This document shows positions 1 through 5,756 of a DNA stretch of 15,846 nucleotides, piece after piece; positions within the stretch are counted from its first letter, which is position 1, and every line of letters begins with the position of its first letter. Under the pieces are notes generated by a model that saw nothing but the letters and a program-made list of their open reading frames with translations, was not told the origin of the DNA and searched no databases. The DNA is from Thermococci archaeon (GTDB taxonomy: Archaea > Hadarchaeota > B88-G9): positions 1 to 15,846 of the forward strand of contig QMUK01000023.1 in assembly GCA_003660555.1 (NCBI GenBank), in the 5' to 3' direction. Both the position numbers and the translations under genes were made by a program.

Positions 1-900
1 AAGGGATATGAGGAAATAATCTTCGCAGGTAAATACACAATAGTTTGCATATACGAGCCCCTAGAATCTCTAGAGGAACTTCTCCCGAAGTTCACTGAGG
101 AGGATTGTCCTGAGCCAAAACCCGGTTACTATTTGGCCGGATGGTCTAGAGTGGTGAATCACCAAATCGTTGAGTCGAAAGGGAAAGAGAGGCCTAGTGA
201 AAGGGGATACGAATACGTGAAGTCCAGAACTGTGGTCAGAGATTGCGTTCCAGTCATAGACGAGGTATTGACATGCGTCTACGAACCAATTGAGCTCGAG
301 ATAATACCGTTAGAGGAGGCGATAAGGAGAGGGCTGATAGAACTAGAAGGACAAGACACTGCTTGGGGAGAGATATTCAAGGTGAAGAAGAGTCCAGAGG
401 GCAAGACGGTCACATTGCCACCGTATACTCCTCTAGTACCATCTGAGGAGGAGGATAAATACCAGAAGATGATAACATCGAATTCAGAGGAAATAGAGTT
501 AAAAGAGGGGGACACCATAGAGGGATACTGCTTAGATGCCTTCAAGGATCCACCGGCACCAGGAGTGAAATACGAAGTAGGTGAGGTCTCCGATAAGGAG
601 AGGATAGTGGCAATAATCGAAGCAGGGGTGGACCTATACCTCAAGGGAGAGTTGGACCAAGAGTTCATGCCTCCGGAGGAATACTTGGACTTCGTGGTCC
701 AGCAGGCCATATGGGTGTATATAGAAGGACTCTCCAAGGAGGACGTACAGGAGAACCTAGAAGCAATCCTCGAGATAGTAGAGAGACAAACTGGGAGGAG
801 GCTCCTGAGATGGCAGAAAAGTCAGTTCCTGGAGAGGGTTTGGGAGGACATCCAGAAGACGCTGAGAGAAGCAGGGATGGGAGACATTGGTACTCGATAA
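1..900 (+). CDS. Partial protein with thioester-domain-like (TQXA) C-terminal region
   Basis: The frame is open from the window edge (no stop in 299 codons), so the true start lies upstream; the TTG at 133 is not needed as a start. The N-terminal part carries two similar segments, each with a C-x-Y-E-P-(L/I)-E core (around residues 17 and 88), suggesting a tandem repeat. Residues ~165-240 hold a GYCLD motif (Cys177) followed by VQQAIW (Gln234, Gln235). This pairing resembles TQXA/thioester domains, where a Cys in a YC motif and the Gln of TQxAIW form an internal thioester used for covalent adhesion in Gram-positive surface proteins. The Cys-Gln distance (57 residues) is shorter than in characterised examples, so the assignment is tentative. 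The tail is helical and charged, with no C-terminal membrane anchor. A signal peptide, if any, is off the window. It is directly followed by the MBL hydrolase on the same strand. Confidence 0.6.
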   Translation, partial: KGYEEIIFAGKYTIVCIYEPLESLEELLPKFTEEDCPEPKPGYYLAGWSRVVNHQIVESKGKERPSERGYEYVKSRTVVRDCVPVIDEVLTCVYEPIELEIIPLEEAIRRGLIELEGQDTAWGEIFKVKKSPEGKTVTLPPYTPLVPSEEEDKYQKMITSNSEEIELKEGDTIEGYCLDAFKDPPAPGVKYEVGEVSDKERIVAIIEAGVDLYLKGELDQEFMPPEEYLDFVVQQAIWVYIEGLSKEDVQENLEAILEIVERQTGRRLLRWQKSQFLERVWEDIQKTLREAGMGDIGTR

Positions 901-2135: not shown

Positions 2136-3962
2136 ATGCGCTTAGGGAAATACCCTTTGGCACTCTCGATACTAGTCATACTCGTATTAGTGATATTCGT
2201 TGTAACTTTACCTGAAAAAGAGATAGAGACTCCAGACATATCTGAAGACTTCAAATCGTACTATTTGGGAAAAACTGAGAAGGAAGTCCTCAGGGATGCT
2301 CTGAGGTCAATTAAAATGGATCTAAACGATTTATGGCTTAAATCAGACGTTGTAGAGGATGATTTCAGACTATCTGTTGTGGAGAGAGTAATGAACGACC
2401 CATACGAGGGGAATTTAAAGACTCTTCTGGAAATATCAAAGGAAATCTCATCCGAGGAAATGTGGAGAGTCCTGAAATCGATGGGAGAGAGGTTAGATAC
2501 CTCTCCAGAGAGATTCTCTGTTGAAGGTAAAGGAATACCAGCCTTAGTTTATTCCATGGCAGTCTCTGAAGAGTTAATATCAGAGGCCTTCTCGAACTTA
2601 ACCGAGGAGGAGCTAGCCATACTAGATAAGGGAATAGCGTTCCTCTTAGAGGGAGCAGAACCAGAGGTGGAGGAGGAAGAATTCCTGAGGATAGTCAGGA
2701 AAGTCGAGAGAGATAGGTTATATTCTGCAGGAGTAACAATTGTCTCGACAATGGAGGAGAACTTAGATGAAATAAGAGAAGAAGCGGACACAAAAGAGAA
2801 CAATAGGATATCTACACCCATAGGATACGTCGTCATAGGTACTAAAGGAGACGATGAGTATCTTCTTGGAGAAGGAGTGATCGGGGTTATAGATCCCGGA
2901 GGGAACGACCTTTACAAGTGGATGGAAAGCAGTGGGATAACCTTCGTGATAGACTTCTCTGGAAACGACACATACATTGGCGAAGACTTCTCCTTGGGAG
3001 GAGCCAGATTTGGAATAAGTATTTTATACGATTTGTCTGGAAACGACTACTACAAGGGAGAGAACTTCTCAATAGGATCTTCCTATTTCGGAGTTGGAGT
3101 TCTGAGAGACTTCTCTGGAAACGACTACTACGAGGGAGACACCTGTACACAAGGCGCAGGAGTCTTCGGACTTGGAGTGTTGAGAGATCACTCAGGTAAC
3201 GACACTTACAGAGCCGCCTTCGAGTCACAAGCGTTTGGATTCACTTGGGGCTTCGGAGTCCTTCACGATCTCTCCGGCAACGATCTCTACTATGCTGGCG
3301 GGAAGTACTTGGATTATCTGAGGTTCAAGGACAGATACCTCAGCCTATCTCAGGGATTTGGATTCGGGATGAGACCATATGCTTCTGGAGGAATAGGATT
3401 CCTGAGAGATGACTCAGGAAACGACGTTTACTTCTCAGACGTCTTCGGACAAGCTTCTAGCTACTGGTTCTCTCTGGGATACATACACGACCTCTCGGGC
3501 AATGACGTGTACCAGGGATGGCTTTACAATCAGGGAGCTGCAACACACCTCTGTGGATCTCTCCTACTCGAAGAGAAGGGAAACGACTCTTATTACGCTA
3601 AGGGAGTCTCGCAGGGATGTGGACACGACTTGGCCATAGGCATGCTAATAGATAGAGAAGGGAACGACTCCTATATAGCTGCAGACCTATCCCAGGGAGC
3701 GGGAAATGCAAACGGAATAGGAATACTCATAGACAACTCCGGAAATGACTCCTACACCGTGACCGAGGCCTTCGGAGTATACGACAATGCCCAAGGTTAC
3801 GGAAACTGGAGAAGGGATTTCGGAAGCATAGGGATACTGATAGATCTCTCTGGAGACGACAAGTACTCTGAACCAGGTAGAACGAACAATAGATTCTACA
3901 GAGGGACCAATTACGGCGTAGTTCTGGATGTAGAGACTAAGGAAGGAGGTGCTCGTGATTGA
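2136..3962 (+). CDS. Membrane-anchored GND-Y repeat protein, predicted beta-solenoid
   Basis: A 608-aa extracytoplasmic protein. Residues ~7-25 form one hydrophobic segment after a basic start (RLGK). There is no obvious small-residue cleavage site, so it may stay as a signal anchor. Residues ~35-225 are acidic and helical. From residue ~238 to ~600 the chain is built of 13 copies of a motif h-x-D-x-S-G-N-D-x-Y, mostly spaced 26-27 residues (one gap of 37, one of 47), often followed by QG and a G-h-G-h-L strand. The dense Asp/Asn/Gly turns followed by aromatic residues suggest a beta-helix with turn-bound cations. They recall RTX calcium-binding repeats but with a different consensus and period. 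The ATG at 2136 has AGGAG at 2121-2125. The stop overlaps the TTG of the secreted HEAT protein, implying translational coupling and joint function on the cell surface. No catalytic motif is visible; an adhesin or scaffold role is inference. Confidence 0.85.
   Translation: MRLGKYPLALSILVILVLVIFVVTLPEKEIETPDISEDFKSYYLGKTEKEVLRDALRSIKMDLNDLWLKSDVVEDDFRLSVVERVMNDPYEGNLKTLLEISKEISSEEMWRVLKSMGERLDTSPERFSVEGKGIPALVYSMAVSEELISEAFSNLTEEELAILDKGIAFLLEGAEPEVEEEEFLRIVRKVERDRLYSAGVTIVSTMEENLDEIREEADTKENNRISTPIGYVVIGTKGDDEYLLGEGVIGVIDPGGNDLYKWMESSGITFVIDFSGNDTYIGEDFSLGGARFGISILYDLSGNDYYKGENFSIGSSYFGVGVLRDFSGNDYYEGDTCTQGAGVFGLGVLRDHSGNDTYRAAFESQAFGFTWGFGVLHDLSGNDLYYAGGKYLDYLRFKDRYLSLSQGFGFGMRPYASGGIGFLRDDSGNDVYFSDVFGQASSYWFSLGYIHDLSGNDVYQGWLYNQGAATHLCGSLLLEEKGNDSYYAKGVSQGCGHDLAIGMLIDREGNDSYIAADLSQGAGNANGIGILIDNSGNDSYTVTEAFGVYDNAQGYGNWRRDFGSIGILIDLSGDDKYSEPGRTNNRFYRGTNYGVVLDVETKEGGARD
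2847..3863 (+). repeat. Thirteen in-frame G-(N/D)-D-x-Y coding repeats
   Basis: The conserved Gly codons of the motif start at 2847, 2901, 2961, 3039, 3117, 3195, 3276, 3417, 3498, 3579, 3660, 3741 and 3852. Successive spacings are 18, 20, 26, 26, 26, 27, 47, 27, 27, 27, 27 and 37 codons. Most copies read SGND-x-Y; edge copies degrade to KGDD (first), PGGND (second) and SGDD (last), as expected for solenoid caps. DNA identity between neighbouring copies is moderate, with copies around 2951-2969 and 3107-3125 nearly identical at the core, so the array expanded by duplication and then diverged. Confidence 0.85.
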
Positions 3963-5093: not shown

Positions 5094-5756
5094 ATGTCTA
5101 GGGCTTTACCCAAAGCAATGGCTCTAGTTCTAGTGCTGTTGGTAGTCAACCCAGTATTTGGTGGAACCGAGAGAGAAGTACTCGAGGAAGAGTATCAGAA
5201 TTTGTTATATGAGAACAAAGTGTTAGCTAGGGAACTACTCTCCATATTGAGCGGATGTGAAATATGTATGGACCCAGAGGAGATGGAGTATAGCATAGTC
5301 CCTACCGTGGTTTCCCTAGCAATGAAGACCAAGGAATGTTGCATAGATCCAGAAACTGGTGAAGGAGTAGTTAGATTCAAGCTAAAGAAGGTCGTGTGTG
5401 AATACGAGGCTCCAGAGATGGCTCTTAGAATAGAGGATCCAACTAAGTTGAGTGATGAAGACTTGGCGAAGCAAATAACTCTATTGATGAAAGAAAGAGA
5501 ACTGCTAAGGAGAGCAATAGCAAGAGCCAATATGGGAGCTAACAGAGGAGTCCAGTATGGATACGTAAGATATAAGAGATATAGCCACGCTTGGTCCATT
5601 TGCTGTGAAGAGGGAGCAATACCGGTCTTTGGGAACATAGAGATATCTGGAGATTTCCCGGTATGTCCATCTAGGTTCTGTAGACCATACTATTCAATAT
5701 CCGTGTGGATGAAGCGCCCCAACCCAGAAAAGATATTCTGTGGAAGAGATCCGTAG
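5094..5756 (+). CDS. Secreted cysteine-rich protein of unknown function
   Basis: A 220-aa protein with a clear signal peptide (SRALPK, hydrophobic core, cleavage likely after VFG near residue 23). The mature part starts with a charged, probably coiled-coil helix, then a pattern of ten cysteines (C-x-x-C, CC, one single, CC, then three singles near the C-terminus). An even number of Cys in an exported thermophile protein suggests up to five disulfides. A VVCEYEAPE segment resembles the C-x-Y-E-P segments in the partial gene at the left edge, so a shared small domain is possible. A basic, Tyr-rich region (VQYGYVRYKRYSHAW) precedes the last Cys cluster. I do not recognise the family. It has its own promoter, a strong ribosome binding site, and a T-rich terminator just after it, so it is probably monocistronic. 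Confidence 0.8.
   Translation: MSRALPKAMALVLVLLVVNPVFGGTEREVLEEEYQNLLYENKVLARELLSILSGCEICMDPEEMEYSIVPTVVSLAMKTKECCIDPETGEGVVRFKLKKVVCEYEAPEMALRIEDPTKLSDEDLAKQITLLMKERELLRRAIARANMGANRGVQYGYVRYKRYSHAWSICCEEGAIPVFGNIEISGDFPVCPSRFCRPYYSISVWMKRPNPEKIFCGRDP

Follow-up and report, generated by a model that had tools for sequence, protein, structure and literature searches.

Covalent 'harpoon' adhesion by Cys-Gln thioesters has been described for Gram-positive bacteria. Whether an archaeal surface protein carries a domain of this kind, and whether such a domain would still form the bond, is the question raised by the first open frame of the window, i.e., the whole 15,846-nt stretch of archaeal DNA analyzed here. 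The initial annotation had read this frame as encoding a possible TQXA-like internal-thioester domain (TED), of which an archaeal version would be new.

Gene reconstruction and predicted export

The window is one of 150 contigs (C23) of an archaeal genome of 1.3 Mb, which contains an archaeal SSU rRNA (1562 bits). The frame is open from base 1 (1-900, + strand; 299 aa) and encodes GYCLD (Cys177) followed by VQQAIW (Gln234), as originally described. Its N-terminus, correctly recognized as missing from the window, was recovered from the same genome: the final 123 bases of contig C126 are identical to the first 123 of the window, a sequence present genome-wide in only these two places, and the 5' part of the gene (its first 513 codons, L003:1770 onward) is located on C126. 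Joining C126 and the window therefore yields an 812-aa predicted-exported protein, the 3' part of whose gene occupies positions 1-900 (+). The joined protein begins MNRILVFVSVVSFILLTP..., and inspection of these first residues suggests an N-terminus that looks like a signal peptide. The beginning of the gene overlaps with the stop codon of the upstream gene, which encodes a 149-aa product with a hydrophobic N-terminus. A Pfam search of the 812 residues left the long N-terminal part without a match and returned no stalk domains; the bulk of the protein has no annotated homologue, and we infer export and a surface role from its first residues and its neighbors. A premature stop or frameshift concealing a C-terminal hairpin was considered and rejected, as inspection of the frames past position 900 revealed no TED-like continuation and a gene for a metallo-beta-lactamase-fold protein starts immediately.

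Several other genes were noted around this locus. Window positions 2136-3962 (+) encode an exported-looking protein of 608 aa in which 'DLSGNDxY' recurs many times. It looks like a repetitive surface protein and matched no Pfam family above cut-off; positions 5094-5756 (+) encode a 220-aa Cys-rich, exported-looking protein with no Pfam match. Upstream of the gene, L003:1-906 (+) encodes what on inspection is a fragment of a glycoside-hydrolase-like protein, likewise with no Pfam match.

The window protein contains two copies of a Cys-containing domain designated CPEP-PGY, each about 70 aa in length. The end of the first copy lies at 1-66 (+; match to profile A3), and the second copy at 91-294 (+) is 41% identical to a short secreted protein that a Methanohalophilus-type genome encodes directly after a TED gene. 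This arrangement is circumstantial evidence that the window protein has a role at the surface. CPEP-PGY was also found in one further archaeal genome; there, the reading frame is interrupted inside the domain (L040/L050, G090), which may reflect a sequencing error or a pseudogene.

Resemblance to the TED family

The reference TED fold comprises a six-stranded barrel and a three-helix bundle. In solved TEDs, the bond-forming Gln is located on the C-terminal strand within the motif (Phi)Q(zeta)(Phi)(Phi), about 130-200 residues past its partner, the Cys of [YFL]C(Phi)(zeta) (PMC4450167; PMC6194298). Class I pairs include SfbI Cys109-Gln261, PnTIE Cys94-Gln247, and CpTIE Cys138-Gln267 (PMC4450167), and class II pairs include Cys71-Gln266, Cys296-Gln467, and Cys88-Gln292 (PMC4450167; PMC6194298). 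Another motif, TQxx(Phi)W, lies on helix 2 and makes hydrogen bonds to the backbone of the Cys through its Gln and Trp (PMC4450167; PMC6194298); according to the mutagenesis of Linke-Winnebeck 2014, as cited in PMC4450167, neither of these two residues of TQxA(I/V)W is required for the bond.

In the window protein, GYCLD (523-537, +) fits the [YFL]C(Phi)(zeta) definition of the thioester-Cys motif (PMC4450167), with Y-C-L-D at residues 176-179 and Cys177 at 529-531. VQQAIW (697-714, +; residues 233-238, with Gln234 at 700-702) corresponds to the T-motif of helix 2, in which V replaces the T of TQxx(Phi)W, and it falls in a predicted helix in both low-confidence structure models. Gln234 is this T-motif Gln and does not correspond to the thioester Gln of solved TEDs. 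The original proposal that Cys177 and Gln234 are themselves the two halves of the thioester is accordingly hard to sustain: both residues are present in the expected order, but solved TEDs form the bond via another Gln and can dispense with this one (PMC4450167; PMC6194298), making such a bond highly improbable. The accompanying caveat of a short Cys-Gln spacing dissolves as well, given that 57 residues is a normal Cys-to-T-motif distance (44-77 in archaeal TEDs).

The profile of the TED family (PF08341; 102 positions) matched the TED-like core at residues 176-249 (526-747, +) over profile positions 3-79. The score of 14.3-18.6 bits is below the Pfam gathering cut-off of 22 bits. The E-value ranged from 0.0048 to 0.057 depending on the amount of protein given and was 0.0024 when the whole genome was searched in six frames, a moderate excess over chance; the window protein was the sole match at E<=10 among 28 genomes of the phylum. 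The match was lost upon scrambling of GYCLD, VQQAIW, or the residues between them (in four of four scrambles of the intervening stretch). The initially suggested TED resemblance is therefore upheld as an in-register, scramble-sensitive match, but not as a score that reaches the family cut-off. An archaeal TED profile built from 24 TED-like archaeal sequences, with the window left out, assigned the window 12.7 bits, against 5.8 for the best of 3000 shuffles. When one archaeal family was held out per test, the window scored 7.2-16.3 bits and divergent genuine held-out members 5.4-19.2, with 1 of 1000 shuffles as high as the window in two of the seven tests. A narrower profile dominated by Methanohalophilus and Asgard sequences missed the window (3.3 bits).

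The C-terminal helices of the window protein also gave a match to POTRA_TamA_1 (E=0.002); this match is below cut-off, indifferent to motif scrambling, and implausible in an archaeon, and was taken as chance. E-values of such size are therefore not proof. In addition, motif pairs like that of the window arise by chance in unrelated phage proteins, and IMG/VR pattern scans for further TEDs returned only such chance matches. Nevertheless, TED ancestry of the window domain is probable, because the PF08341 match is in register and sensitive to scrambling and the 24-sequence profile ranks the window above all 3000 shuffles.

Searches for homologues of the TED-like part returned none in the phylum, in 394 archaea, in 84,980 species genomes (pattern-based), in IMG/VR, or in plasmids, and none among solved structures. 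Two candidates were rejected: viral contig L005, where DQEFMPPE is a chance match in a phage protein, and L030, a weak match to the TED region that lies within a CorA-like transporter gene and is likewise attributed to chance. Two AlphaFold2 runs, one of the protein alone and one with two archaeal TEDs, gave mean pLDDT values of 51.5 and 48.6, at which the Cys-Gln distance is not measurable, and a Foldseek search of the PDB with these low-pLDDT models returned no match at E<=0.001. Both weak models place the Cys strand, helix 1, helix 2 with QQAIW, and helix 3 in the same order as in solved TEDs, and in the second model all strands precede the helices.

Candidates for a bond-forming glutamine

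Two residues could be considered as the missing partner of Cys177. Gln285 (853-855, +; in DIQKTLREA) lies 108 residues past the Cys. In the TEDs of a Thorarchaeote and of a methanogen (L006) this distance is 105 residues, and in Methanohalophilus it is 124; the spacing of Gln285 is right, whereas its predicted structure is wrong for a thioester Gln. This spacing would favor an intact thioester and argue against its loss. However, neither profile comparison, nor shuffling, nor strand propensity revealed a recognizable P-Q hairpin or (Phi)Q(zeta)(Phi)(Phi) Gln strand in the tail of the window protein: 450 of 3000 shuffles of the tail scored as high as the tail itself against a profile of the Gln-strand region, and its strand propensity is 0.93, versus 1.08-1.32 in comparators. 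Instead, the profile test and both low-confidence AlphaFold2 models point to a C-terminal helix at about residues 270-290 (808-870, +), in place of the P-Q hairpin of other TEDs. The second residue, Gln155 (463-465, +), was found by motif scan and would be a speculative alternative. It sits upstream of the Cys in YQKMI, a strand resembling PhiQzetaPhiPhi, and aligns with an ordinary pre-Cys strand of other archaeal TEDs. Since the tail is not Gln-strand-like and Gln155 sits in an ordinary pre-Cys strand, the domain is described here as TED-like and is not filed as a TED; a working thioester is a candidate only, and a doubtful one.

TEDs in other archaea

In one archaeal order, which we take to be Methanobacteriales, 16 of 150 genomes have PF08341 matches above cut-off, and in three genomes of the Methanohalophilus class the score reaches 54.7 bits. 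TEDs with all three motifs, including Gln strands, occur in the former order (YQNYF, HQNFF; L006, L118, L128), in Methanohalophilus (KQLLF; L007, L035), where SdrD_B and DUF7507 stalk domains come after the TED, and in Asgard archaea (VQLIF, TQVPI; L019/L036, L101), among them a named Thorarchaeote. The presumption that an archaeal version would be new thus does not hold at the family level. When all solved structures were searched with a profile of six archaeal TED-like sequences, one of them from the window, only three chains were retrieved at E<=10, namely 5A0L, 5A0G, and 5A0D; the first two are named TED structures (PMC6194298), and 5A0D shares its molecule name with 5A0G. The literature yielded no paper on archaeal TEDs of this type. 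The archaeal alpha-2-macroglobulin-type thioester proteins that have been described are of a different kind (PMC8416519): like the window protein, for which export is predicted, these TEP-like proteins are exported and have a candidate internal thioester, but their thioester domain is unrelated and all-helical, with a CxEQ motif, whereas no CxEQ surrounds any Cys of the window protein and no Pfam match to the alpha-2-macroglobulin/TEP family was obtained.

Some further features of the archaeal TED-like proteins were observed. In the presumed Methanobacteriales, several of the surface proteins L006 and L109-L131 have the Cys, TQ, and C-terminal Gln motifs together with a hydrophobic C-terminal tail. 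In Methanohalophilus, L031 (G389) and L035 represent nearby paralogous adhesin-like genes that combine a TED with SdrD_B and DUF7507 domains, an archaeal sorting-like C-terminus, and all three thioester motifs, and the gene of the CPEP-PGY protein comes next. Among the Asgard TED-like domains (L019/L034/L036, L100-L102), L100 retains Q..AIW while its Cys is lost (GWTPDS).

Compared with class I TEDs (SfbI-TED, 5A0L; CpTIE-TED, 5A0G), the window domain shares the [YFL]C(Phi)(zeta) motif, a T-motif about 57 residues on, the predicted succession of Cys strand and helices 1 to 3, and, presumably, an exported protein. It differs in falling below the Pfam cut-off, in having no recognizable P-Q hairpin, and in its C-terminal position (the frame ends at 900), as opposed to an N-terminal distal tip; moreover, the protein has no LPXTG, and Pfam found no isopeptide or ester stalk domains in its 812 residues. 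With the three-motif archaeal TEDs, to which it is about 17-18% identical, it shares the Cys and T motifs at a similar spacing (57 versus 44-66 residues), whereas in these TEDs a Gln strand is clearly present at the C-terminus (YQNYF, KQLLF, VQLIF, TQVPI), and several of them have sorting-like tails of archaeal type at their C-terminus or carry known stalk domains. The methanogen PF08341 members L110, L111, L117, L119, and L132-L134 (the last three at E of about 1e-14) resemble the window in having Cys and T motifs and no evident Gln strand between helix 3 and the next domain, but they score far above the Pfam cut-off (up to 54.7 bits) and occupy the N-terminal half of their proteins, with Ig-like stalks next.

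Competing explanations and significance

The reading preferred here is that the 812-aa archaeal protein, predicted to be exported and to contain two CPEP-PGY domains, ends in a divergent domain of TED ancestry. This domain would preserve the recognizable N-terminal half of the TED fold, i.e., the Cys177 strand and the helices with the Gln/Trp T-motif, while, at the C-terminus, a helix appears to replace the P-Q hairpin from which the bond-forming Gln comes. Most likely, the domain would serve in recognition, either at the surface or in secreted form, and would have kept the TED scaffold with its classical Cys-Gln thioester lost or relocated; in this sense, we infer export, ligand binding, and thioester loss for the window protein. 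Loss is supported by the tail, which fits the Gln-strand region no better than its shuffles and has low strand propensity; strong methanogen members of PF08341 likewise have no evident Gln strand. The explanation as a whole is weakened by sub-cut-off scores, the failure of the narrower profile, and the poor models, leaving it with roughly an even chance of being correct.

A working, non-canonical TED would instead pair Cys177 with Gln285 at the extreme C-terminus, or with Gln155 on an upstream strand of a rearranged barrel, and capture amines covalently on a partner surface. Consistent with this, Cys177 sits in a perfect [YFL]C(Phi)(zeta) motif, Gln285 has archaeal spacing within D-I-Q-x-x-L-x-E, comparable to D-V-Q-x-x-F-x-E of the Thorarchaeote, YQKMI fits PhiQzetaPhiPhi, and the weak second model sets all strands before the helices. 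The shuffle and propensity results for the tail, the helix of the two low-confidence models, and the ordinary alignment of Gln155 argue otherwise, so that this reading is unlikely, and its specific form, a C-terminal archaeal TED whose thioester Gln has moved to Gln285 or Gln155 in a rearranged domain used for covalent attachment, is quite improbable. A similarly unlikely view is that the domain is not a TED at all but an alpha/beta domain specific to this lineage, which has both YCLD and QQAIW merely by coincidence. This view would fit the scores below threshold, the similarly strong POTRA match in the same region (itself taken as spurious), the chance occurrence of the motif pair in phage proteins, and the lack of any homologue showing conservation, whereas the dependence of the PF08341 match on the sequence between the motifs, the performance of the independent archaeal profile against 3000 shuffles, and the putative exported context speak against it.

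On the preferred reading of a divergent, TED-derived recognition domain, the window protein offers a test of whether a TED scaffold can be maintained once its bond is gone. More broadly, the archaeal TEDs, several of which have all three motifs, suggest that thioester chemistry reaches archaea, and this undescribed set constitutes a more useful lead than the window domain itself.
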